Positions 2,378 through 25,070 of a stretch of DNA of 42,245 nucleotides are shown here, in pieces (within the stretch, counting starts at the first letter, position 1; every line of letters starts with the position of its first letter). The DNA comes from Sulfolobus islandicus Y.N.15.51 (lineage in GTDB: Archaea > Thermoproteota > Thermoprotei_A > Sulfolobales > Sulfolobaceae). The stretch covers positions 1-42,245 of the forward strand of contig NC_012624.1 in assembly GCF_000022485.1 (NCBI RefSeq), in the 5' to 3' direction. A model generated the notes under the pieces. The model made no database searches and was not told where the DNA came from. It was given only the letters and a program-made list of their open reading frames with translations. A program made the position numbers and the translations under genes.

Positions 2378-2412
2378 CGAGATAATAATAGTATAAAGAT
2401 AAAAACAAAAAA

Positions 2413-2422
2413 GTTTTTAAAT
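2413..2422 (+). promoter_or_regulatory. TATA box for the structured RNA
   Basis: GTTTTTAAAT, centred about 26 bases before the G-rich 5' side of the stem at 2445-2457; this is the normal crenarchaeal TATA to start-site distance. Confidence 0.55.
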
Positions 2423-2443: not shown

Positions 2444-2524
2444 TGGGGGATGAGGGGATGATGAGTAGGGTCAGAATTGACCTATGATAGGACACTCGGC
2501 AGCTGACCTGACCCCCTCATCCCT
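2444..2524 (+). ncRNA. Structured small RNA, C/D-box-like
   Basis: A perfect 11-bp terminal stem (GGGATGAGGGG 2447-2457 with CCCCTCATCCC 2513-2523) encloses a box C-like ATGATGA (2458-2464) directly after the stem and a box D-like CTGA (2508-2511) next to the other strand, as in a kink-turn. A C'-like ATGATAG (2484-2490) and a weak D' (TTGA 2477-2480) lie inside. A second CTGA (2503-2506) and GGGTCAG (2468-2474), which can pair with CTGACC, offer an alternative hairpin fold. It has its own TATA box and an AT-rich downstream end. Guides would be 2465-2476 and 2491-2507; the target is unknown. A plasmid antisense RNA is the alternative. Confidence 0.5.
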
Positions 2525-2549
2525 AATTTATTCTTACCTTATCTAACTA

Positions 2550-2939
2550 TTAAGCTTTTCTTCTCATTGAATTTTGAAAAATTGAGCAAAGAATGAGGTT
2601 GGATCCTAACGTTAAATTTACGACGTGAGAAAAATTCAATAAACTCCCCAGTTTGCTAAGAAAAATTCTTTCTTCTAATTTCTTAATCTCATCTAATTTT
2701 GTATTATTAGCTAATAATGTACAATAAATGCAGCTGAGGAGTGATATGATGCAACATAGATACGCTAAACATTCTCTATAATAAACTGAAATATGATAAT
2801 GTATTCGAATTGAATTAAGCATCTTTATAATTAGGCAAATTTGTATAACACAAATATAAGTGTGCGTAATTATTGCAGAAATAGTTATCAAGACACTTGT
2901 TAAAATAAAAGAAATGATGAGAAGAGTTTTATTTCTCAT
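2550..2939 (-). CDS. Small membrane protein, partly assembled by a recombination motif
   Basis: 129 residues with a hydrophobic N-terminus (MRNKTLLIISFILTS) and further membrane segments, Cys-rich in the middle. A TATA box (2955-2963, minus-strand TTTTTAAAT) lies 17 bases upstream. The promoter and the following 40 bases are a diverged copy of the block before the TrbL-like gene at 30099, which also begins MRKALTILL. The palindrome at 2640-2655 lies within the C-terminal part and encodes KLGSLL. The gene may be a product of motif-driven rearrangement; function unknown and expression uncertain. Confidence 0.4.
   Translation of the reverse strand: MRNKTLLIISFILTSVLITISAIITHTYICVIQICLIIKMLNSIRIHYHISVYYRECLAYLCCIISLLSCIYCTLLANNTKLDEIKKLEERIFLSKLGSLLNFSHVVNLTLGSNLILCSIFQNSMRRKA
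2640..2655. repeat. Recombination motif copy, inside gene 2550-2939
   Basis: TAAACTCCCCAGTTTG, one mismatch from the 16-bp palindrome. Read on the minus strand it contributes KLGSLL to the membrane protein. Confidence 0.8.
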
Positions 2940-9204: not shown

Positions 9205-9270
9205 ATGCCGTCGTCAACAGTTTCCGATAAACCGTGAAGTTTATATACTTTGTATGTAAGTTTAACTACA

Positions 9271-9855
9271 ATGCTGAAACCTAAGGAAGTGTGCCAAAAA
9301 CTAGGAATATCATACCGCACACTACAGAGCTATGTTAAGAAGGGTTACATAAAACCCGTGATACTACAGAGTGGAAAATGGAGGTTTAAAGAAGAGGATG
9401 TCGAAAGACTCATGGGGGTTGTTAGGAAGAGGAAAGTAGTATTATACGCTAGGGTATCATCAAACACACAGAAAGACGACTTAATAAACCAAGTTAAGTA
9501 CCTGGAGGAGAACGTTAAGGACTACGACCAAGTAATAACAGACATTGGTTCTGGGTTGAACATGAAGAGAAAAGGATTCCTCAAGCTATTGAGAATGATA
9601 CTAAACAACGAAGTATCGAAAGTTGTCATAGCCTACCCAGACAGACTAGTTAGGTTCGGCTTTGAAATAATAGAGGAGGCATGCAAAGCACACAACTGCG
9701 AGCTCGTGGTATTAAATAAGGAGGACAAAACACCAGAGCAGGAACTAATCGAAGATTTGATCTCTATACTGGTATCATTTAGCGGAAAGTTGTATGGTAT
9801 GAGGAGCCATAAATATGAGAAGGTGAAGAAGTGTGTCGAAGAGCTTAAGGCTTAA
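9271..9855 (+). CDS. tnpA: IS607-type serine recombinase (transposase TnpA)
   Basis: 194 residues from ATG at 9271, which lies about 28 bases after TTTATATA (9239-9246), giving a leaderless mRNA; an in-frame TTG at 9250 is less likely. N-terminus: MerR-like HTH (LKPKEVCQKLGISYRTLQSY). Then the resolvase fold with VVLYARVSSNTQKDDL (nucleophile Ser about residue 63) and YPDRLVRFGFEIIE. It cuts and rejoins DNA through a 5' phosphoserine link during transposition. Overlaps tnpB by 23 bases. Confidence 0.92.
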   Translation: MLKPKEVCQKLGISYRTLQSYVKKGYIKPVILQSGKWRFKEEDVERLMGVVRKRKVVLYARVSSNTQKDDLINQVKYLEENVKDYDQVITDIGSGLNMKRKGFLKLLRMILNNEVSKVVIAYPDRLVRFGFEIIEEACKAHNCELVVLNKEDKTPEQELIEDLISILVSFSGKLYGMRSHKYEKVKKCVEELKA

Positions 9856-11134
9856 ATCATTCCAACCGGAGGAGGAATACGTTTACCTAACTTACTCCCT
9901 GAAGAATAATAAGAAGGTGAAGAGCAAGATATTACTAGAGAACTATAAACACCTACTACAGAAGGCTTTAGACTGGTTATGGGAGAGGACTAAGATAGAG
10001 AGGAAGGAGGTCAAGAAGGGCAAGAAAATTTTCGCTAAGGTTAAAGTAACCTTGCCAAAGAAAAAGGAAGTTTACAAGGTGTTGAGGGATGAGTTAGAGA
10101 AGGTTAACAATCTAGCTTCACATTACGTTGACAAAGCAATAAATGATGCTTACTCAATCTTGAATAGTTGGAGGAGGAGGGCTGAAAAAGGACAAGCGTC
10201 ATTAAGGAAACCTAGATTGAAGAAGGTTTACGTTAGGGTAAAGTCGACACTTAGAAAGGTTGAGGGTGAGAGTGTAAGGATTACAGTAAGACCTTACGAA
10301 TACGTCACCTTCTCATGGTCTCACAAATGGTTTTCAAGGAGGGTTGAAGGGCTTGAGTTGGGTGAGCCAGTAATAAAGGAGGATAAAGTTCACCTACCAT
10401 TTCGTTATAAGTTACCTTGGTTTACTCCCCTTGACTTTCTATCTATTGATAGTAACTTGTACACATTAGACGCTTACGATGGGGAGAAGTTCGTCACATT
10501 TTCTTTGAAGGAGTTGTATAGTTTGAAGTTCGGTATGGAGTTGAAGAGGAGTAAAATACAGTCCTTCGCTTCTAAACACGGTAGGAAGGGGAAGGTATTG
10601 TTGAGGAAGTACTCCCACCGTGAAAGGAACCGCGTGCTTGATTATGTTCACAAGTTTGTGAACAAACTGTTGGGAATGTATCCTCTCACTATGTTTGCTG
10701 TCGAGAAGTTGAATAAGCAGTCAATGTTCCAAGACGCTGATGATAAGCTGTCTAAGAAGGTTTCAAGGACTGTATGGAGGACTATACACCGCGTGCTTAA
10801 ATACAAGGCTCCCCTTTATGGTTCTTTCGTTAAGGAGGTGAACCCACACCTCACATCTAAGTCCTGCCCCAGATGTGGATGGGTTTCCCGAAAGGTCGGC
10901 AGGATTTTCAAGTGTGAGAGGTGTGGGTTCACTCTAGATAGGCAACTAAACGCATCTCTCAATATTTACCTCAAGATGTGCGGGTTTCCCCACCTCTTTC
11001 TTACTCCCACTGGGAGTAGGTGGATTGGGGTTATCCCGCTAAAGGGGCGGAGGGGTATGAACGGGGCGTTGCCCCGCGACTCTGGTGAAGCCCAAGGGCT
11101 GAGGATTGGATACAAATTCATGAAAATTCAATGA
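9833..11134 (+). CDS. tnpB: TnpB, RNA-guided transposon endonuclease
   Basis: 433 residues with a GTG start inside tnpA. RuvC residues are all present: Asp in LSIDSNLYTLDAY (about 205), Glu in FAVEKLN (about 291) and Asp in FTLDRQLNASLNIY (about 369). A four-Cys zinc finger (CPRCG...CERCG) lies between the last two. The N-terminal region is long and basic, as expected for RNA and TAM recognition. TnpB uses a transposon-derived guide RNA to cut DNA and so favours retention of the element. All key residues are intact, so it is probably active. Confidence 0.9.
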   Translation: MSKSLRLKSFQPEEEYVYLTYSLKNNKKVKSKILLENYKHLLQKALDWLWERTKIERKEVKKGKKIFAKVKVTLPKKKEVYKVLRDELEKVNNLASHYVDKAINDAYSILNSWRRRAEKGQASLRKPRLKKVYVRVKSTLRKVEGESVRITVRPYEYVTFSWSHKWFSRRVEGLELGEPVIKEDKVHLPFRYKLPWFTPLDFLSIDSNLYTLDAYDGEKFVTFSLKELYSLKFGMELKRSKIQSFASKHGRKGKVLLRKYSHRERNRVLDYVHKFVNKLLGMYPLTMFAVEKLNKQSMFQDADDKLSKKVSRTVWRTIHRVLKYKAPLYGSFVKEVNPHLTSKSCPRCGWVSRKVGRIFKCERCGFTLDRQLNASLNIYLKMCGFPHLFLTPTGSRWIGVIPLKGRRGMNGALPRDSGEAQGLRIGYKFMKIQ

Positions 11135-11784: not shown

Positions 11785-12426
11785 ATGATTATCGGTATGG
11801 GAAAAAGTCCAGTAACTGCAATTCTGCAGCAATACAGCTATATCTGTGCATATCCTTGCTTCTTTGATAACAAAGTATTGCTGACTGAGAATAGAAGCAG
11901 GGCTTATATCCAGTACATTAAATTATTAGTAAGGCATTATGCAAAATACGGCAGGGCTCTTAAAATCGCAATATGGCCCGACTATACTCCATTATATAAG
12001 GTAGAGAAAATAGCAAACATATACTTGTTTAATAATATAAGCTTCATAGTTCCTATACACGATTTATCAGAACTAGAGATTGTAGATGAACTAGTAGAGA
12101 ATGGGTTCAGGGTTTTCGCGGGTTATGCTTCCGATAAGAAGCTTAGAAAATATGAACTTGATGACTTCAAAGAAGTAGCAAATTACGACCGGTGGTATCT
12201 AGGAGTATCATCTAAGCATGAGGTAAGAGAGGCAGTACTATATAATTTCCAGGGTTTTGACATAACAACATTTCTCTTTGGAAGACATGAGGATAGAAAG
12301 GACAGCAAAAAACTTGCATCAAATATACTGAATTTCGTTAAAGAGATCAGTAAGGTCAAAGGCAAACAAACTATTCTTTACGATTTCTGCGGTAAACTGG
12401 GGAGTTTAACGGGTGAAAGACGGTGA
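11785..12426 (+). CDS. Putative TIM-barrel protein, remotely TGT/DpdA-like
   Basis: 213 residues. Short strands alternate with helices in a barrel-like order: LKIAIWPDYTPLYK, NISFIVPIHDLSE, GFRVFAGYASDKK, DRWYLGVSSKHEVRE and FQGFDITTFLFGRHED. Asp/His at strand ends and the W-Y-L-G strand recall tRNA-guanine transglycosylase-like proteins such as DpdA, which insert modified bases, but the resemblance is weak and zinc ligands are not evident. The motif at 12393-12408 encodes GKLGSLTG near the C-terminus, so the tail may be acquired. The stop overlaps the next gene. Confidence 0.4.
   Translation: MIIGMGKSPVTAILQQYSYICAYPCFFDNKVLLTENRSRAYIQYIKLLVRHYAKYGRALKIAIWPDYTPLYKVEKIANIYLFNNISFIVPIHDLSELEIVDELVENGFRVFAGYASDKKLRKYELDDFKEVANYDRWYLGVSSKHEVREAVLYNFQGFDITTFLFGRHEDRKDSKKLASNILNFVKEISKVKGKQTILYDFCGKLGSLTGERR
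12393..12408. repeat. Recombination motif copy, inside gene 11785-12426
   Basis: Exact TAAACTGGGGAGTTTA; encodes GKLGSL a few residues before the stop. Confidence 0.9.
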
Positions 12427-14608: not shown

Positions 14609-16345
14609 TTATTTTAAAAATTCATCTAAATTTAATTCGGATTTTACAGTATATTCTGGATATTTCTTATACACATAGGATAACAACTCCTTAAGGTCCT
14701 TATTCCCAAATCTATTTATTAAATCGTTTACCGCGTTGGCGATATCTTGATTTACCTGCGGTAACTCCTTAGATGTGATTAAACTCTTATCTACGTTATC
14801 TTTAACTTCCTTAACCTCTATCCTATCCTTAAGCTCCTCAAGATCCTTATAAAGTTGGGGAGTAAAAGGACCATATTTGTATGGTTCAAAATTGTAAGCT
14901 AGATTAATGTTATATTCCTTTTGAAGGAGGAATAGATACTTCATTAACTCTGTCATATAGACTGGCCTACCTTTAATCTTAGACGCTTGATAGACTAAAT
15001 ATGGTATTACTACAGATCTAAGTAGGATAATTTGCCTCCTCCAATCCTCAGTTAATTTCCCTGTTAATGCTAACCTAAGAATAGACTTATATAGAGTATT
15101 TGCCTCATCTTCTAAGTTCTGTAGGAAATCATTAAATCGAATAATAAGTTCATCAACCTTTTGAAGTAGTTCTACGATCTTCTTTTGTTCCTCTAGGGGA
15201 GGTAAAGGAATTAGTAAATTTCTTATTGTATCTAAGTTAAGATTCCACTTCCCTGCTTGGTTTTTAACCACTTTCTTAAAAGATCCGTTTAGATGATACC
15301 ATGAGAGTAAATAATATATATAATATGGTTCCACATCCTTTGATACAATCCGTATTGCCGTTAGATGATTACTAAAGGTTATCTTTTGATTTAAAGGCAT
15401 ATCAATAATACCAAGTTTCCCTATATGATCAATACTACCATTAGTATTGACCAATACGATATCCAAATGCCTGAGCAAATACCTCTCAATTTTTGGAGAT
15501 TCAGGTATATATACAATTCTATGAAAAACAATCCTATCCGTTTCATTATCAATATTATCTGGTCTTAAATGGATTACTTTACTATTCTCATCTCTTTTCC
15601 TCTCTGAAAAACCAGAACGTATAATAGCAATTTCATTAAGTCTTCTTACTTCCCAATCCTTAGGAAATTCGCCAATATCAGTCTCAACATAATCTCTATG
15701 CCCTATACCTTTAGTCAATAATTCCTTTCTTATTACTTTCGTTATAGTTTCTGTAGAATTTCTAATTTGAATAATATAATCCTTTAAGGTGTAATAAATA
15801 TCAGTGGCCTTTTGAAGTAGTTCTACGATCTTCTTTTGTTCTTCTAGGGGAAGTATAGGAACTGAGCTATTTAAAACTATTTCAAGTGTAAGATTGGGTT
15901 GAGTACCCTTTTTAATAAATTTACTCCAATAAGGTTTGAAGTATAGATACCAATAATATAAAAATTCTGTATCTATAATATTCTTATTAGGTATTATTCC
16001 TATAATTGCTTGATTTGTCGCTACTGGTATTTTATTAATTGCAACAAATCCTAAAGAACCATAAATTGTTAATAGTAAAGAATCCTTTGGAACTATCCAA
16101 GCATTAGAATTTTCTAATCCTTTTTCAGTAATAAATTCCTCAGTATTGTATAGATACTTACCAGATTTCGTTATATCTTGTATCTTTGCAAATGGAATGT
16201 TTCCGTTCCAATATTCAGGAACATTTCTTCTGGGTGTTCCTCCAGATTTTGCTTTTATTATAACATCTTTTAATTTTCTTACATCCCAATCCTTAGGAAA
16301 TTCACCAATATCAATCTCAACATAATCACTCATTTTCATCGCCAA
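14609..16345 (-). CDS. hsdS: Type I restriction specificity subunit with YwgA-like C-terminal domain
   Basis: 578 residues, longer than usual (about 400-450). Two target-recognition halves begin with near-identical words, DIGEFPKDWDVRKL (about residue 12) and DIGEFPKDWEVRRL (about 223), each ending in the conserved helix with PLEEQKKIVELLQKA. After residue about 430 there is an additional domain: ILLRSVVIPYLVYQASKIKG, then MKYLFLLQKEYNIN and YKYGPFTPQLYKDLEEL, which matches the YwgA family. The start overlaps hsdM by up to 20 bases (ATG at 16333 gives a smaller overlap). Directs the complex to DNA sites; the extra domain is unexplained. Confidence 0.9.
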   Translation of the reverse strand: MAMKMSDYVEIDIGEFPKDWDVRKLKDVIIKAKSGGTPRRNVPEYWNGNIPFAKIQDITKSGKYLYNTEEFITEKGLENSNAWIVPKDSLLLTIYGSLGFVAINKIPVATNQAIIGIIPNKNIIDTEFLYYWYLYFKPYWSKFIKKGTQPNLTLEIVLNSSVPILPLEEQKKIVELLQKATDIYYTLKDYIIQIRNSTETITKVIRKELLTKGIGHRDYVETDIGEFPKDWEVRRLNEIAIIRSGFSERKRDENSKVIHLRPDNIDNETDRIVFHRIVYIPESPKIERYLLRHLDIVLVNTNGSIDHIGKLGIIDMPLNQKITFSNHLTAIRIVSKDVEPYYIYYLLSWYHLNGSFKKVVKNQAGKWNLNLDTIRNLLIPLPPLEEQKKIVELLQKVDELIIRFNDFLQNLEDEANTLYKSILRLALTGKLTEDWRRQIILLRSVVIPYLVYQASKIKGRPVYMTELMKYLFLLQKEYNINLAYNFEPYKYGPFTPQLYKDLEELKDRIEVKEVKDNVDKSLITSKELPQVNQDIANAVNDLINRFGNKDLKELLSYVYKKYPEYTVKSELNLDEFLK

Positions 16346-17891
16346 TGCCTAAGATCTTCTTTAACTCATTCAACCTTTTCATAGCGTCACTTAAGTTAGT
16401 CTCCATTAATTCTATAAGTTGTTTGGGATCTGCATTTTCTTCCTCTAACCTGACTTTCCTATATACGTTAATATCTAATCTATAATCATGTTTCCTTATC
16501 TCTTCAACATCTACTACGAAGTACTGTTCAGTTTGAGGTATTTCCTCTCCTCTCTTAAATTTCTGATAAATTTCTAGAGCTAAAGGCAAGTCTCCGCATC
16601 CATCTATATCCCCCTTCTTATCACAATCCCCTATAGGTTTCCTAGTCGGTTTAAGTTCATAGCCGTCGCTTTCTATGTTAAAGAAAAGTACCTTATCTGT
16701 AGTCTTTTCTCCCTTGTTAGGCCTTCTAAAGACTAATATATCTGTTTTAGCAGCTGAGTAAGGCAAGAAAACCCCTGCGGGTAATGAAAACACAGCTTCA
16801 ATCTTGAATTTATCAACTAAATCTCTCCTAATACCTTCATAGTTCTCGTTAAAGAGGAGGCCTTCCAGCATTACTGTAGCTACCCTCCCTCCAGGTTTGA
16901 CCATGTCCATTATAGCTTGAATGAAATAAGTTTCAAATCTCTTGAACTTATACTTAAAGTTACCAGTAGGTTCACCACTAAATGGACCAAAAGGCGGGTT
17001 AGTGGTTATAACGTCTGCCTTCTCCTTATATGCACCTTGGACTGAGCCAGAGAGAGCATCTAGGTTCTCAAAGTTCGATGAGCCGTCTCCATGAAGCCTT
17101 AAATTCATTAGCCCTAACTTAAAGACATCTGGAGCTTTTTCTATACCGTAAAGGTTATGCTTTAATTCCCTTATTTTTATTTCCTTATCAGCTTCATTGG
17201 TAATTTGTCTCTCTATTTTTTGTTTAACATATTCAAAAGCCTTAACTAAAAATCCTCCAGTTCCAGCAGCTGGATCTAATATAACTTCACCTGGGTTGGG
17301 ATCGATAATTCTGACCATAAAGGAAACTATATTCCTAGGCGTAAAGAACTGTCCGTAATTACCTTGTTGCCCAAGTTTATACATCAAAAATTCGTACCCT
17401 CTACCTAAAGCATCAAATTTTCTTCCTTCGTCTCCAGGTAATTTCAGTAGCCTAAGCCTATCTATAACCTGGATTACCGTATTATCGTTTTGCATTCTCC
17501 TGGTTTTGTTGGAGAATATTTTCTTGATTATACTTCTATCTTCATCTATTTTTGGATCTCCGGTATCTGGTAAATTAGCCAAATCGAGAAACATTTTATC
17601 CAAAAATTCTGTTACTGTTTTGAACCCCTTACTTCTAGCATAATTTCTAGGATCACATGCCCAGTTAAAGAATCTGTACTCACTTGGTATAGTGGACTTA
17701 TAGTCTTCACCCAACTCTTTAGCTATGTTTTCCTGGTAAATTTCCTGCTCATCAAACAACCTCAGGAAAAACAGATACGAGAATTCCTCTAAATATTCCG
17801 TTGGTTTTACTATATCGCTTCTAAATATATTAGCAATATTCCATAACTCATCTCCAAAGGAGTTCCAATCAACTTCTTTACTCTGTTTCAT
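16326..17891 (-). CDS. hsdM: Type I restriction-modification DNA adenine methyltransferase
   Basis: 521 residues, the normal family size. N-terminal helical domain (about 10-170; FLRLFDEQE near 42), then the SAM-dependent fold: QFFTPRNIVSFMVRIIDP, motif I DPAAGTGGFL (206-215) and catalytic NPPF (298-301, in TTNPPFGPFSG), followed by the GGRVATVMLEG strand. It methylates adenine in the site chosen by HsdS and forms the core of the complex. It lies 19 bases after hsdR and overlaps hsdS, so R, M and S form one operon. No damage visible. Confidence 0.95.
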   Translation of the reverse strand: MKQSKEVDWNSFGDELWNIANIFRSDIVKPTEYLEEFSYLFFLRLFDEQEIYQENIAKELGEDYKSTIPSEYRFFNWACDPRNYARSKGFKTVTEFLDKMFLDLANLPDTGDPKIDEDRSIIKKIFSNKTRRMQNDNTVIQVIDRLRLLKLPGDEGRKFDALGRGYEFLMYKLGQQGNYGQFFTPRNIVSFMVRIIDPNPGEVILDPAAGTGGFLVKAFEYVKQKIERQITNEADKEIKIRELKHNLYGIEKAPDVFKLGLMNLRLHGDGSSNFENLDALSGSVQGAYKEKADVITTNPPFGPFSGEPTGNFKYKFKRFETYFIQAIMDMVKPGGRVATVMLEGLLFNENYEGIRRDLVDKFKIEAVFSLPAGVFLPYSAAKTDILVFRRPNKGEKTTDKVLFFNIESDGYELKPTRKPIGDCDKKGDIDGCGDLPLALEIYQKFKRGEEIPQTEQYFVVDVEEIRKHDYRLDINVYRKVRLEEENADPKQLIELMETNLSDAMKRLNELKKILGIGDENE

Positions 17892-17910
17892 CGAGTTTTC
17901 GTAACACGAA

Positions 17911-20202
17911 TTAGCCAGTTTCCATCACCGCCTCATCATATAGTTTCCAGAATGAGTTTATATCTTCAAAGCACCCTTTTACCTTAGAAAATCCTCCAGC
18001 TTGCTTAACCACCTCAGCGTTGAAAAACGCCTTCTTATCTATATTTGGGTTTCTCTTTCTAAAGTCATAGAGTGCCATGAATAATCTTTCACATTCTTTA
18101 GGATATCCTTTCTTGTTATACCATTCCTTGATAAGATTCCTTTTCCTTTCCTCTGGAGTCGGGAAAGTTTTCAATCCCAAAGCCACTTCTACGAAGTCTT
18201 TTAGGGTAGCGTCGGGTTCTCCATAAGTATCCTTTAAAACATCCTCTGTTATGCCTTGTTCATTAAGGAAAGCTTCAAGCTCCTTTAAATAATTCTCGTT
18301 TAACGTTTTACCTCCATTTTTCCTATAAAAATAGTCGAAGGATCTGACTGCGGTTTCAAATTGTGTCTTCTTTATTTGTACTTCTTCTTGTGCTTGTAAA
18401 TAAGCCTTTACTTGTCTTACTACTTGTTCACTTATTCCTTTTAATTCATTCTTAAAATTCTCAGGAGTAATTACTTCAGCATAAACTATACTTACTGGAA
18501 TATCTAAGATTACCATCTCTTCTCTCTTTTGTTCTCTCTTCACTTCCTTCTTGGCAGTAGTCCTTTGCGGTTCTTCTGTGGAACCCATAAGCTCGCTTAT
18601 TTCCTTCTCTTCTTCCTCTTCTTCTTTCACGATGTCCTCATTCGTTATCGGCTTGTCTTCTTCATTTTCTAATCTCCATGTGTCCACAAAATCAATAAGA
18701 TAGAATTTGTCCTTTACTTTATTTCCCTCTTTATATATTCTAGTCCCTCTACCTTTCATTTGTAAATATAATACTCTGGATTTTGTAGGCCTTGCCATAA
18801 CTATTACTTCTACGTCAGGGGCATCAACACCAGTGGATAGTAAATCTACAGTAAAAGCAACTTTGATCCTAGAGTTAGGACTTTGGAATTCTCTAACTAA
18901 TTCCTCATGATTAGGAATAGCGGAATGAATAGAGCGGAAAATTTCTTCAGCCTCAGCATTATCAGGAGAGTATCCCATTAATTCATTATATTTCCTAATA
19001 AAAGCTAGCCTGAGATTTTCTGCATGCTTAATACTAGCTGCAAAAACAATAGCTTTCTTCAGCTCTTTAGTTTCTTTAAAGTTTATTGCTTCGAAGTATT
19101 TTTCAGCTATTAATTCATTCCTCATTGGTATATCTACTTTTTTACCTAAATCGTTAGGATCAAAATCATAACCTAAATCATGAATTCCATAAATATCTAC
19201 ATTTGTAAGGAACTTATAGTAAATTGTATCTGCTAAATAGCCGTCTTTTACTCCCCTACTATATGTATATCTAAAAATAGGATATCCGAAATACGCAAAA
19301 TTATCAACATCCTTATCAATTTTAGGGGTTGCAGTAAGCCCTAACACTGCTGCTTTATTAAAGTATTGCACAACTTTATGCCAATCTCCATAATACGATC
19401 TATGTGCCTCATCTAAAACTATCAATTGGAAATGATCTGAATTAAATAGTTTGAATTTCTCATCTACATACAGCATTTGTACTGTTGAAATGATTATATC
19501 TGCAGATAAGTCATTAATATCACCACTTAATTTTCTTATATTATACTTGTCTCCTAACCTAGCATTAAATCTCTGATAAGTTTGGGTTGCTAGGGAATCC
19601 CTATCAACTAAATACAAGACATTTTTTACCTTGCCCTCATCAAGGAGTTTCGCTATTGCTGCCATTACAACCTCTGTTTTCCCTGTTCCAGTAGCCATTT
19701 CTACTAACATTCTCTTTTTACCGCTGAGAAAAGACGTAATTATTTGCTGTACTGCAATCTTCTGATAATTTCTTAAATCAAGGGCATTAATCGAACTGGA
19801 AACCGGATTTAATGTTACTGAAACTTCTTCAGGCTTTAGAAACCTCTCTACTTGGGTTTCTACTGTATTTGCATCTAGGTTTTGCATGTACCATTTTTGA
19901 CCATCACACGCATAGATATAAGGTACGTTAACTCCATATTTTCTTAGAATTTTAGCACTCTCTCTAGCCTCTGCTATTGCAGCTCTTAAATCAACACCCT
20001 TTTTCTTCGCCTCAATTAGAATTACCTTATCTCCTAAAATTAAAGTATAATCTGGTCTATGTTTTCCTTCATTTTCTGTAAACGATATGTTTGGGAAGAG
20101 ATCCTTTAGGGTGTGGTTTTTCTTAAATTTCTCGAGATTCCATCCCAACTTCCTAAGATGTTCATCGCATAACGTTATCGCATCAGCTTCGGTATTTGGC
20201 AT
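17911..20202 (-). CDS. hsdR: Type I restriction endonuclease / translocase subunit
   Basis: 763 residues. PD-(D/E)XK nuclease at the N-terminus: RPDYTL (Asp51) and LIEAKKKG (Glu64, Lys66). Helicase motifs: Walker A ATGTGKT (170-176), DEAH (264-267), GLTATP, then STGVDAPDVEVIVMARPTKS and QMKGRGTR in the second RecA domain, and an EcoEI-like helical C-terminus. All active residues are present. It cuts unmethylated DNA after ATP-driven translocation. First gene of the operon; TTAAAAAATTTTT (about 20224-20236) upstream may be the promoter. On a conjugative plasmid it could exclude competitors or stabilise the plasmid. Confidence 0.95.
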   Translation of the reverse strand: MPNTEADAITLCDEHLRKLGWNLEKFKKNHTLKDLFPNISFTENEGKHRPDYTLILGDKVILIEAKKKGVDLRAAIAEARESAKILRKYGVNVPYIYACDGQKWYMQNLDANTVETQVERFLKPEEVSVTLNPVSSSINALDLRNYQKIAVQQIITSFLSGKKRMLVEMATGTGKTEVVMAAIAKLLDEGKVKNVLYLVDRDSLATQTYQRFNARLGDKYNIRKLSGDINDLSADIIISTVQMLYVDEKFKLFNSDHFQLIVLDEAHRSYYGDWHKVVQYFNKAAVLGLTATPKIDKDVDNFAYFGYPIFRYTYSRGVKDGYLADTIYYKFLTNVDIYGIHDLGYDFDPNDLGKKVDIPMRNELIAEKYFEAINFKETKELKKAIVFAASIKHAENLRLAFIRKYNELMGYSPDNAEAEEIFRSIHSAIPNHEELVREFQSPNSRIKVAFTVDLLSTGVDAPDVEVIVMARPTKSRVLYLQMKGRGTRIYKEGNKVKDKFYLIDFVDTWRLENEEDKPITNEDIVKEEEEEEKEISELMGSTEEPQRTTAKKEVKREQKREEMVILDIPVSIVYAEVITPENFKNELKGISEQVVRQVKAYLQAQEEVQIKKTQFETAVRSFDYFYRKNGGKTLNENYLKELEAFLNEQGITEDVLKDTYGEPDATLKDFVEVALGLKTFPTPEERKRNLIKEWYNKKGYPKECERLFMALYDFRKRNPNIDKKAFFNAEVVKQAGGFSKVKGCFEDINSFWKLYDEAVMETG

Positions 20203-21470: not shown

Positions 21471-21953
21471 ATGGGAGAAGAAGTAAATAATCAGTCAATT
21501 CAAAACCAACCTCAGTTAAATCAAAATAATTTAAACAAGGGAGATAATATCTCTTCTAATGAAGAGAATGTAAATGAAAAGAAGAAAGAAGAAAAGAAAA
21601 GTAAGAAGCAGAAAGTAGAGAAGAAGAAAAGTGATGATTACTTATTATTAGTATATCCAGAAAAAGCAAAGTCTTTCAGAGCCAAAGTACAAAATTGTAT
21701 TATCGAAATATTAAAGAAAAACGAGTTAATGAACGAGAAAGACTTAGTTTTGCAGTTGATTTTTGAATGCGAAGCTGCTAAAGAGTACTATAAAGTAACT
21801 CACGAGACTCAGTACCTGAGGAGAATTATATGGAAGATGGCGAAGGATAAGACGATTTTGAGGGCGAAAATAGTTGGAGATGAGAGGTATACATGGTATT
21901 TATTACCAGAGAACTTAGAAAAAGTAAAGGATAAGTTATTACGTAGGGCCTAA
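21471..21953 (+). CDS. Lysine-rich protein next to traG, putative DNA-binding
   Basis: 160 residues. Residues 1-30 are Asn/Gln-rich and low complexity, 30-60 are Lys/Glu repeats (EKKKEEKKSKKQKVEKKKSD), and 60-160 form a compact helical/winged domain (FRAKVQNCIIEILKKNELMN, DERYTWYLLPENLEKV). The C-terminal part has the order helix-helix-helix-hairpin of a wHTH. It sits between the origin-like region and the convergent traG-like gene, overlapping the latter by 15 bases. A role in DNA processing for transfer or replication is possible from position only. Confidence 0.6.
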   Translation: MGEEVNNQSIQNQPQLNQNNLNKGDNISSNEENVNEKKKEEKKSKKQKVEKKKSDDYLLLVYPEKAKSFRAKVQNCIIEILKKNELMNEKDLVLQLIFECEAAKEYYKVTHETQYLRRIIWKMAKDKTILRAKIVGDERYTWYLLPENLEKVKDKLLRRA

Positions 21954-24900
21954 AAGGATAGTTTTCTTAGTTCCAGCTGCTTGGATTAAGATCTTATTTT
22001 CTTTTAGTTTTACGTCTTCCAGTAGCTCCGGATCCTTTGCTGCTGCTTTAAGCAGTTCTAAGTCTGTCTTAAGTACCCTGTACTGCTTATCTCCTATCTT
22101 TATTATTGCATAATCGGTATCCTCTTTGAGGACCTCTATCGTTACTTCTTTCAGCGTTAAACTCCCCAGTTTACTGTTAGCATTATTGGCAGCAGCTCCC
22201 TGGGCTGCTTGTTGAGCTATACTTTCAGCCTTCTCTTCTCTTTTGCCGTTAAACTCCCCAGTTAACTGTTCTTGTTTCTGTTCTTCTTTACTTTGTTGTT
22301 CTATCTCTTTCTTTAACTTTATTGAGAATATCTTAACTTTGTTTTTCTCTACATCAGAAAGTTGATTATATAGCTGCTGCAGCTTATCAAAACATTCTTC
22401 GTATGCCCATGAATGTACTTCTGCAAAGTCCTTAGTGCTTTCCTTTCTGAAATTATGCATTACTTGCTCCGGATGTACACTAAGCTCATTGCAGCTTTCT
22501 ATTTCAATTGCAATAGATCTATCATAAATGGGCCTCAATGTTGATTTGTCGATAGGTATAGCTACTATATCAGGTCTAGACGTCAAGCTCTGGTCTTGTT
22601 TGGCTGGAGTTACGTAATAACCTTGCTTCATGTACCTGAGCATTACCTTCATGGCCAGTTTTCTACCTTCAACAGAAGGAGCTACTGCTTTAACATTTCC
22701 AAACAGTCCCTTACCGTAGTAGAGAACCTTTTTGTTTCCTTCCTTTTCAACGTCTATATAACCTAGTTTCTCCAATCTGTTTACCACATCATTCACCTTA
22801 TCCCTGTCCAATCCTAGCTCCTTTAATAGATCAACTAAATACATCTTCTTCCCATTTTTGAACACGTGATATAGAACCAGTTGTTCTAATACGTTAGGTT
22901 TCTCTATATATTTCATAATTGGGTTAACTATACTCTCTATGTCTTCGCTCTTAGGTATCTCTCCGGTTATATATATCTGCATTCTGTCTATGACTTTCTT
23001 CAGCTTCTCTGGGTTCTTTTTCACAGGGACGTAGTTTACTTTAACCCTCACTGGGACAACCTTATCTCCCTCTTTTCTCGGTGTGATTATGGCTACAGTT
23101 TCGCCTACTCCTAGGCTGGGTAGGATTTTTTGTAGCTCTGAGCCGAACTCTGGAAATATTTCCGCAAACGCTTTAGCGTCATCTCCTTGTTCCTTCATCA
23201 ACAGCTTCACCCCAGTATTGCTCATTATTGATTTAATGAGGGGTTTGTCTAACTGTCCAGTGTGTTGATGAGCCATGATAATATGCATACCGTACTTCCT
23301 GGCTTCGCTTAGAATATCATCTATAACGCTCAATGATGCAATATTCTGGAACTCGTCCATAAATGCAATAATAGGAATCCTTTCCATGCCTAATGCAGCC
23401 CTCGCTAATGCATAGTACCATGTCTTGAAGATCCAACCAGCTAAAATCAGGAATGCCGCATCATTTCCTACTGCAGCTTTTGATGCGTTTATTACTATTA
23501 TGTTCCCGGGCTTGAATAGTTCCTTATCATCTATCTTACTCCTACTGAATATCTTTAGGAGAAGAGGGTTTGTCCCTAACATCTCAAGCCTCGACACAGC
23601 TGAGAGGAAGCTCTGTTCCTGCATGTTTTGGAACATCCCTAATTTATTTTCCCAAGTAGGATCATCAACTGGGAGATCTATCTCACCTGTCCTCAGTTTG
23701 TAAATAATTCTGTATAGATCTCTAAATGTAGGTTCTGGAGTTTTAGAATAAAGTAGCTGCATTGATACTTGAATGATATATTTTACGTAAACTGCGGTAT
23801 CCTTAAGTCCAAATAGTTTCTCGAATATTTCCATAACATTGCTGAACCCTAGTAGCAAGGCTTGTTCTTTATTTGGGATGTTTGGCAGTGCTAATGGGTT
23901 GATTGAAATCCCTGATTCTACAGGGTGGAAGTAGATTAGTTTTTCGTCATCTGCAAAATATGAAGCAACCTCTTCAGCCATGTCTCCGTGCGGGTCAAAA
24001 ATCATGATTATCGTGTTATTGTAAGCTTTCTTTATAGCAGTTATCAAGGAAATAATTGTTGTAGTCTTCCCAGCACCAGTGCCACCTATGACATATCCGT
24101 GTCGATAAAGATCTTCTAACTCTAACATGTAAGATTTACCAGATTGGATAGTTTTGCCTATTTCGAAACCATTCCTGTTAGGAGGAAGTTCCGGAAGTAT
24201 CCCCCCGGTTACGAAGTTCACTGGGATTATTGATGGATTGGGAATTACAGCTACTTTATTTATTTTCTCTTCATCAACCCAGAGCCATCTCTTAATTTTT
24301 AATGAATGAAATCTAGGCACCCTGGGGATATTATCTTCCCATCCCTTAGTTTTCCTAATTTCTAGTCTTAATTTTCTAGACCTAGTTAAAATAAATTGCT
24401 GAAGCTCCTTAGTCAATTCTTTTATTCTTTTTTTATCATCTGAAAGAATGTATGGTTGTAAATAGTATATGTTATCTTTCGCAAATTGCTCTAATCTCGA
24501 AGCTAGGACTTCCCTCTGTCTTTTGCCTATTATAGATTGGTTCCTTTTCAATTTATCAGAATATTTGAGAAATATCTCGTTGAGCCGTGGCTCAAGGACT
24601 ATCCAGAGCCTTAGTTGTTCCCTTGGCCGCAATTTAGTAAGAAAACTGTTGAAATCGTTGAACTCGGCACCCCAGTAGAAATCTTTCTCGTTTTTGAACA
24701 AAATACGACCTACGAATTTAGGGACTGGAATGTTAACATTTTCGTTAACACCGAAGTCCTTCCTTAAAACTTCTAGTTGTGTATTTGTGTAAGCATAGAG
24801 GTGCATTAAATCTTTGTCTTTAAAATATATGATCTCGAAGACATGTCCTAGAGAATTTAGGATGTTGAATGTCTTATCGTACTCGACTTTTGGGAATAAT

Positions 24901-24983
24901 TCGTAGTATTTGATTACTTCTTTTTTGCCCCACATCAGAAGAATATTATTTAAAAAGGGCTCAGTGTGGCAGTCTTTCCTCAT
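21939..24983 (-). CDS. traG: TraG/VirD4-like coupling ATPase with wHTH and nuclease-like domains
   Basis: 1014 residues. Walker A GGTGAGKTTT (about 299-308) and Walker B IIAFMDEFQN (about 536-545) with MAHQHTGQLDKP downstream define an archaeal VirD4/HerA-type ATPase. After it come a wHTH (about 690-745; LVDLLKELGLDRDKVNDVVN), a PD-(D/E)XK-like segment (SRPDIVAIPID near 802, IAIEIES near 825), a Gln/Lys linker containing two recombination motifs and a small terminal domain. It would couple DNA to the membrane channel. An internal TATA (24948-24956) suggests a start at 24935 (MWGKK) instead of 24983. Confidence 0.88.
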   Translation of the reverse strand: MRKDCHTEPFLNNILLMWGKKEVIKYYELFPKVEYDKTFNILNSLGHVFEIIYFKDKDLMHLYAYTNTQLEVLRKDFGVNENVNIPVPKFVGRILFKNEKDFYWGAEFNDFNSFLTKLRPREQLRLWIVLEPRLNEIFLKYSDKLKRNQSIIGKRQREVLASRLEQFAKDNIYYLQPYILSDDKKRIKELTKELQQFILTRSRKLRLEIRKTKGWEDNIPRVPRFHSLKIKRWLWVDEEKINKVAVIPNPSIIPVNFVTGGILPELPPNRNGFEIGKTIQSGKSYMLELEDLYRHGYVIGGTGAGKTTTIISLITAIKKAYNNTIIMIFDPHGDMAEEVASYFADDEKLIYFHPVESGISINPLALPNIPNKEQALLLGFSNVMEIFEKLFGLKDTAVYVKYIIQVSMQLLYSKTPEPTFRDLYRIIYKLRTGEIDLPVDDPTWENKLGMFQNMQEQSFLSAVSRLEMLGTNPLLLKIFSRSKIDDKELFKPGNIIVINASKAAVGNDAAFLILAGWIFKTWYYALARAALGMERIPIIAFMDEFQNIASLSVIDDILSEARKYGMHIIMAHQHTGQLDKPLIKSIMSNTGVKLLMKEQGDDAKAFAEIFPEFGSELQKILPSLGVGETVAIITPRKEGDKVVPVRVKVNYVPVKKNPEKLKKVIDRMQIYITGEIPKSEDIESIVNPIMKYIEKPNVLEQLVLYHVFKNGKKMYLVDLLKELGLDRDKVNDVVNRLEKLGYIDVEKEGNKKVLYYGKGLFGNVKAVAPSVEGRKLAMKVMLRYMKQGYYVTPAKQDQSLTSRPDIVAIPIDKSTLRPIYDRSIAIEIESCNELSVHPEQVMHNFRKESTKDFAEVHSWAYEECFDKLQQLYNQLSDVEKNKVKIFSIKLKKEIEQQSKEEQKQEQLTGEFNGKREEKAESIAQQAAQGAAANNANSKLGSLTLKEVTIEVLKEDTDYAIIKIGDKQYRVLKTDLELLKAAAKDPELLEDVKLKENKILIQAAGTKKTILLGPT
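22158..22173. repeat. Recombination motif copy, inside traG
   Basis: Exact copy encoding SKLGSLT at the start of the terminal domain. Confidence 0.9.
22250..22265. repeat. Recombination motif copy, inside traG
   Basis: TAAACTCCCCAGTTAA, one mismatch; encodes QLTGEFNG in a different frame from the copy at 22158. The pair brackets a 92-base linker that could be exchanged. Confidence 0.85.
24948..24956 (-). promoter_or_regulatory. Possible internal promoter of traG
   Basis: Minus-strand CTTTTTAAAT followed after 12 bases by ATG (24935). The spacing equals that at window position 1 and at 25504, favouring the shorter start. A second box (TTTATAAA, about 25039-25046) could serve the longer start. 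Confidence 0.45.
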
Positions 24984-25054
24984 ACTCTCAGCATGTCATC
25001 TCTTCATCATTGCCCTAAATTTCTATATGTAGAGAAAGTTTTATAAACTTTGAA

Positions 25055-25070
25055 TAAACTCCCCAGTTTA
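25055..25070. repeat. Recombination motif copy, between traG and gene 25092
   Basis: Exact copy in the intergenic region between traG and the small secreted protein. Confidence 0.9.

Follow-up and report, generated by a model that had tools for sequence, protein, structure and literature searches.

A complete box C/D sRNA gene, with predicted targets in 23S rRNA, on a Sulfolobus conjugative plasmid

The closest described relatives of the locus reported here are the archaeal box C/D sRNAs, including the sR9 (RF01312) and sR28 (RF01136) families, with which it shares C, D', C' and D boxes, 12-nt guides, kink-turns and a terminal stem, as well as predicted double-guide targeting within 100 nt of rRNA and, in its own family, predicted tRNA anticodon targets. 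It differs from them in being encoded on a conjugative plasmid, under a promoter common to a plasmid family, and in its long G/C-rich terminal stem. Furthermore, the guides of this family turn over, and in many members D' is TTGA and C' is ATGATAG, which swaps the kink-turn pair to U-A. A 2021 review described the mobile features of archaeal C/D sRNA genes as still undiscovered (PMC7994747), and no earlier report of a plasmid-borne archaeal C/D RNA was found in the open-access literature.

Three other systems associate C/D-like RNAs with mobility. The v-snoRNA1 of Epstein-Barr virus (PMC2718842) is likewise a C/D RNA of an infectious element that relies on host C/D proteins, but it is a single RNA of a eukaryotic virus, with neither conjugative transfer nor a diversified guide family. 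TIGR-Tas systems (PMC12045711) also have RNAs, encoded on elements, that bear paired guides and motifs resembling box C/D, and they involve Nop-domain proteins; their RNAs, however, form arrays beside their own Nop-domain Tas protein and target DNA, whereas the genes described here are single, carry canonical C/D boxes and have predicted RNA targets. A scan of the plasmids revealed no array, and the neighbouring genes encode DUF1286, PlrA, integrase and type IV secretion (T4SS) proteins, with no Tas-like neighbour. Mammalian retroposed snoRNAs (Weber 2006, cited in PMC7994747) are, in the account given there, mobile C/D genes that can change the modification repertoire; as described in that account they move by retroposition within a genome, not by conjugation between cells.

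The stretch of DNA analysed, hereafter the window, is 42,245 bp in length and is separate from the 2,812,165-bp chromosome in a two-contig genome. Its genes encode TrwB/TraG-like ATPases, a tyrosine integrase, a PlrA/pRN-type regulator and DUF1286, and by this gene content it is a 42-kb Sulfolobus-type conjugative plasmid. The window also contains a type I restriction-modification set on the minus strand (14609-20202), consisting of an HsdS-like gene (14609-16345, with a weak SocA/Panacea-like match at its C-terminal end), HsdM (16326-17891) and HsdR (17911-20202), and an IS607-like unit on the plus strand (9250-11134), in which a serine-resolvase/MerR-type protein is followed by TnpB with a Cas12f1-like TNB domain. 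The sequence TAAACTGGGGAGTTTA occurs in nine exact copies on either strand of the window (at 12393, 13410, 40192, 30142, 25055, 22158, 13087, 13030 and 8169); it is repeated in most plasmids of the group and is absent from pTC.

Positions 2445-2527 of the plus strand form a complete box C/D sRNA gene, with a TATA box, terminal stem, C, D', C' and D boxes and two guides, arranged as follows:

2403-2422, plus strand: promoter, an A-rich upstream stretch with the TATA box TTTAAAT (2416-2422); TTTAAA is nearly invariant in 25 aligned homologues
2445-2527, plus strand: predicted transcript of the C/D box sRNA gene, terminal stem included; fold z -3.2, Rfam sR9/sR28 matches, homologues in 24 of 31 family genomes
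2446-2457, plus strand: 5' arm of the terminal stem, GGGGATGAGGGG; pairs with 2513-2524
2458-2464, plus strand: box C, ATGATGA; T-G-A invariant in an alignment of 23 relatives
2465-2476, plus strand: D' guide, GTAGGGTCAGAA, 12 nt; complementary to 23S rRNA
2477-2480, plus strand: box D', TTGA; D'1 covaries with C'6
2484-2490, plus strand: box C', ATGATAG; conservation and kink-turn pair in relatives
2491-2502, plus strand: D guide, GACACTCGGCAG, 12 nt; 23S complementarity, weak by itself
2503-2506, plus strand: box D, CTGA; invariant in 23 of 23 aligned relatives
2513-2524, plus strand: 3' arm of the terminal stem; MFE fold and stem covariation

The TATA-like element lies ~26 nt upstream of 2445, and transcription would be expected to start at approximately that position. 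The original prediction, made from the letters of this DNA, had described a TATA box, ATGATGA directly after the stem, CTGA beside the other stem strand and an internal ATGATAG, and these are present as the element at 2416-2422 and boxes C, D and C', respectively. It had also described a terminal stem of 11 bp; the stem stands, and its length is 12 bp in the MFE fold. The second guide had been placed at 2491-2507, but because 2503-2506 is box D its true extent is 2491-2502, and box D' had not been named. The boxes have the canonical 12-3-12 spacing of two 12-nt guides and a 3-nt D'-C' spacer; relatives do not keep the further CTGA at 2508-2511 as a box. The region folds at -39.8 kcal/mol (z -3.2), and none of 200 dinucleotide shuffles folded as well.

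A strict C/D pattern (C, 9-13 nt, D', 3 nt, C', 9-13 nt, D) matched six times in the 2,854,410-bp genome, at five chromosomal positions and at 2458-2506 of the window, and the reversed pattern had no match. These counts, together with homologues of the promoter and element (profile R1, below) in 24 of 31 genomes, indicate that the arrangement is not due to chance. A covariance search across related plasmids had been proposed in the original prediction as a check. The best Rfam candidates over 2380-2600 were two archaeal C/D families, sR9 (29.4 bits, E 2e-4) and sR28 (22.2 bits, E 5e-4), both matching exactly 2454-2508; their scores lie below the respective gathering cut-offs of 36 and 39 bits, and at the gathering threshold there was no match in the window and no C/D match in relatives. 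By these cut-offs the gene is outside the sR9 and sR28 groups. Because each Rfam sR model represents one narrow orthologue group, the gathering test concerns membership of sR9 or sR28 and not the C/D class.

The region was found by BLAST in 12 plasmid records and by DNA search in 20 of 31 Sulfolobaceae genomes. The R1 profile, which comprises the promoter and the element, matched in 24 of the 31, and in a 200-genome sample of the phylum its matches were confined to Sulfolobaceae, except that a single genome from a different family had two matches lacking the promoter. Whether on Sulfolobus conjugative plasmids or in copies that have integrated or decayed, homologues retain the promoter, boxes and stem with changed guides. 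In the alignment, the promoter block (TTTAAAT and its flanks) is almost invariant, with TTTAAA at a fixed distance from the stem in the 25 aligned homologues; the C and D boxes are invariant, and the variable blocks are the two guides. Strong chromosomal R1 matches lie mostly among plasmid genes, in integrated or decayed plasmids, and weaker ones occur in stretches lacking plasmid genes, a distribution that fits exchange between plasmids and chromosomes in either direction. One genome (G027) has 11 R1 matches, with four family C/D genes within 0.8 kb of its chromosome (L151, 2951-3739). In another (G013), the plasmid pB12E5 (37,840 bp) is apparently both free and integrated, and the same element occurs again on the other contig at 2641148-2641269. 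Just 3' of the C/D gene of the window, a 28-base stretch (2557-2584, plus strand) recurs exactly in several Sulfolobaceae genomes, at positions with no match to the C/D gene itself.

The comparison of relatives supports the RNA structure. Divergent relatives have replaced both arms of the terminal stem and still pair, as in GGGGAAAGGGG/CCCCTTTCCCC and AGGGAGTGGGG/CCCCACTCCCT; for these two stems, 27 swapped 3' arms were tried and all paired less well. For the majority of divergent members, none or few of the 27 swapped arms pair as well as the native one, with the exceptions of L001, L002 and L031. RNAalifold recovered only six pairs from the full alignment because the stem arms vary in length among members, and the stems were instead tested sequence by sequence. 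The kink-turn pair D'1-C'6 is Watson-Crick in 54 of 54 parsed relatives (36 C-G, 17 U-A and 1 A-U), which are related by descent and, like the other family counts given here, do not represent independent events. This result was not forced by the parser, since the parser scores both boxes independently.

The original prediction had also noted an alternative hairpin. This structure (2466-2474 with 2503-2511, plus an inner helix) forms in silico, but no more than 3-14 of 23 relatives can make the majority of its outer pairs; for this lack of conservation it was rejected as the functional structure. The original prediction had held that homologues keeping the hairpins and losing the C and D boxes would speak against a C/D RNA. 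The opposite was found: the C and D boxes and their spacing are kept and the internal hairpin is lost, which supports its central claim of a C/D RNA on a conjugative plasmid.

These observations also bear on whether the transcript might be an antisense or structural RNA of plasmid replication, involved in copy control or forming an origin hairpin. The gene does lie in a conserved non-coding part of the plasmid, and the origins of these plasmids have been placed in large intergenic regions with repeats (PMC4390865). Its location, however, differs by plasmid, being in the section B region of pAH1 and beside DUF1286/PlrA in others, and it is the guides that differ between plasmids and not the boxes. 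For both reasons a primary function at the origin or as an antisense RNA is disfavoured, and with the internal hairpin not conserved we regard this reading as extremely improbable.

The structure is not confined to one plasmid. A scan of the window and 11 plasmid records (380 kb), using box, spacing and stem criteria, identified 15 C/D genes among 12 conjugative plasmids, compared with none in five dinucleotide-shuffled sets and none in reversed sequences. Eleven of the 12 yielded C/D genes, three of them in pB12E5 and two in pTC. The twelfth, pARN3, has a divergent version at the same locus, and if this variant is counted no Sulfolobus conjugative plasmid examined is without one. The two genes of pTC (L192, 19018-19063 and 19181-19229) lie ~120 bp apart in the large intergenic region described as containing the replication origin (PMC4390865). 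In IMG/VR, a C/D pattern built on the element's own box types had no match; a looser C/D pattern had three matches, which look like coding repeats or lack archaeal context, and a promoter-plus-C pattern without box D had 24, only one of which (L209) has the C/D motif and stem.

The window itself contains a second, previously unreported C/D gene:

24961-25010, minus strand: second C/D box sRNA gene; R1 match (E 1.4e-4) and strict scan

This gene has the stem AGGGC/GCCCT, C ATGATGA, D' CTGA, C' ATGAGGA and D CTGA, with a TATA box upstream. Its guides, AGAGATGACATG and AAGACTGCCACA, had no confident target in rRNA or tRNA and are nearly the same in its homologue on pBEU9E1 (17483-17532). It is located at the 5' edge of a TraG/TrwB-like gene, the ORF of which, as called (21939-24983), starts inside box C'. 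The TAAACTGGGGAGTTTA copy at 25055 flanks this second C/D gene, and a shortened core of the repeat occurs 3' of the first, at 2642.

The occurrence of a C/D gene on every plasmid examined (the pARN3 variant included), the invariance of the boxes and the compensation within stems point to selection on the RNA, and this weighs against the view that a captured host C/D gene persists as a neutral passenger whose guides duplicate host modifications or decay with no benefit to the plasmid. Degenerate copies do exist (pARN3-type, L152 and L153), relatives with the same promoter are found in chromosomal stretches lacking plasmid genes, and many guides have no confident target, all of which such a passenger would explain. 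The guides that do have targets, on the other hand, fit host sites rather than showing random decay. We consider the passenger view a real possibility, well short of even.

Targets were predicted by requiring at least nine consecutive Watson-Crick pairs over the +5 nucleotide (PMC4644070), using the tRNAs of the same genome, the 16S and 23S rRNAs of a genome of the same genus (G015) as a stand-in for host rRNA, the rRNA operon of the host genome being masked, and E. coli numbering obtained by alignment to K-12 rrnB. The complementarity search proposed in the original prediction gave, at the level of the family, matches far above those of shuffles. Among 102 unique guides, 32 formed at least nine pairs including +5, compared with a mean of 8.9 and a maximum of 16 over 100 shuffled sets, and 12 formed at least ten (shuffles: mean 1.8, maximum 7); approximately two thirds of the unique guides have no target by the nine-pair rule. 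When both guides were scored together within 100 nt of rRNA, 16 of 56 sRNAs reached p <= 0.05, against 2.8 expected. The recurrent site pairs were 23S 1918 with 1947, 16S 1073 with 1102, and 16S 1406 with 1498; other predicted targets of relatives were 16S 518, the anticodon loops of tRNA-Gly (UCC, CCC and GCC) and tRNA-Val (CAC), and tRNA-Ser GCU. By plasmid, the predicted sites are 23S 1918 (and 1947) for the window and pAH1 types, 16S 1073 (and 1102) for the pNOB8 type, 16S 1406 (and 1498) for pKEF9, and nucleotide 36 of tRNA-Gly(UCC) for pHVE14. Five C/D RNAs from the host chromosome, scored in the same way, gave single-guide p values of 0.02-0.46, and the plasmid guides are thus not weaker than these.

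The original prediction had listed no known target for the guide that it placed at 2491-2507. The D' guide GTAGGGTCAGAA forms nine consecutive Watson-Crick pairs with 23S rRNA (CTCTGACCCTCT / TCTGACCCT), which places +5 at E. coli 1918 in the H69 loop; the single-guide p is ~0.1, and the target is identical in five Sulfolobaceae rRNAs. The D guide GACACTCGGCAG forms nine consecutive pairs, two of them G-U, with 23S rRNA (TTGCCGGGTAAG / TTGCCGGGT), which places +5 at E. coli 1947, and qualifies only under the relaxed double-guide criterion. The two predicted sites are 29 nt apart (paired-site p = 0.03). Judged on complementarity, the pairing predicted for the window's own guides is modest and that of the D guide alone weak, and the assignment gains weight only because relatives have the same site pair. 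In the G027 copy, guides for 1918 and 1947 occur in swapped order with 12 and 10 pairs, which argues that both are real targets of this sub-family; this copy may be a pseudogene, because its D' and D boxes are degenerate. The arrangement that addresses the 1918 site, a C box followed by GGGTCAGA and D', was limited to R1-type copies in 3 of the 31 family genomes, a distribution that also counts against a passenger duplicating host guides. In published archaeal C/D sets, however, predicted sites are densely concentrated in helix 69 (PMC4644070), in favour of the passenger view.

The retention of both guides likewise bears on whether the RNA could serve as an L7Ae-binding regulator or decoy, or as a cis-acting leader, and not as a guide. 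L7Ae binds kink-turns outside sRNAs and has been proposed as a translation regulator in archaea (PMC5539422), and the second C/D element of the window lies just before the TraG/TrwB-like gene. A decoy, however, needs only one kink-turn, whereas this family retains C', D' and two 12-nt guides, whose target complementarity is far above that of shuffles. A purely regulatory role, which explains the target-matching guides less well, is in our judgement very unlikely.

The concentration of predicted targets on the decoding apparatus is striking, although host C/D RNAs favour such centres too (PMC4644070). A further, speculative alternative is that methylation at the decoding centre, H69 or anticodon loops would guard host translation from ribonuclease or ribosome-targeting toxins, whether these come from the host, a rival element or the plasmid, as counter-defence or addiction. 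The recurrent targets (16S 518 and 1406/1498, 23S 1918 and the tRNA-Gly and tRNA-Val anticodon loops named above) are consistent with such protection, as are RelE/ParE-type toxin genes on pB12E5 and pBEU9E1 and a diversification of guides between plasmids of the kind expected of arms-race components. No toxin acting on these sites was identified, however, and the site bias may be generic, given the preferences of host C/D RNAs. Moreover, in the tRNA cases nucleotide 32 is the partner of the guide base adjoining the box, so that, as deduced from the loop, +5 falls on nucleotide 36, which is no obvious site of cleavage. A protective role of this type seems to us unlikely, if still worth considering. 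It shares C/D identity with the passenger view and with the explanation preferred below, and the three differ in purpose only, so that the confidence attached to each overlaps with that of the others.

Plasmids also carry a distinct C/D type, represented on pKEF9 (L186, 26463-26510) and at L150, L154, L162, L163 and L168. Its two guides are complementary to the two strands of helix 44 of 16S rRNA, in the decoding site (E. coli 1406 and 1498), and the pKEF9 D' guide forms 11 consecutive pairs.

The explanation that we prefer, and hold to be highly probable, is that 2445-2527 is a functional box C/D sRNA gene of a conjugative plasmid, acting through the host ribonucleoprotein (RNP) on host 23S rRNA. 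It is based on anatomy, conservation, covariation, distribution among plasmids and target complementarity above that of shuffles. The testable features of the C/D class were found, namely boxes and stem, a kink-turn-capable C'/D', 12-nt guides, +5 complementarity and a host fibrillarin, which is encoded on the chromosome (E 3e-103). From these we infer transcription, RNP assembly, methylation and benefit to the plasmid, in the following sequence. The plasmid-family promoter would produce a short RNA of ~83 nt, on which host L7Ae would bind the two kink-turns (C/D and C'/D') and host Nop5 and fibrillarin would complete the RNP, so that only host machinery would be needed. On host 23S rRNA, the D' guide would then base-pair in H69 and the D guide in H71, ~29 nt further downstream, and 2'-O-methylation would be expected five positions in, at E. 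coli-equivalent 1918 and 1947. In related plasmids the same chassis would be kept and the guides exchanged, redirecting it to 16S 518, 1073/1102 and 1406/1498 and to the tRNA-Gly and tRNA-Val anticodon loops. If so, cells of one host would be expected to differ at the predicted nucleotides according to whether they carry a plasmid.

The C/D genes described here are present on transmissible plasmids, as a family with guides that change between plasmids. More tentatively, and as a view we would not put at even likelihood, the conjugative plasmids of Sulfolobales may constitute a mobile guide-RNA library that borrows the host C/D RNP, marks the decoding centre and anticodon loops and changes the modification map of the host, probably protecting or tuning translation for the plasmid. 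If the methylation is real, orphan and strain-specific chromosomal C/D genes would gain a source in decayed integrated plasmids, and the modification of rRNA and tRNA would be a transferable trait in archaea.
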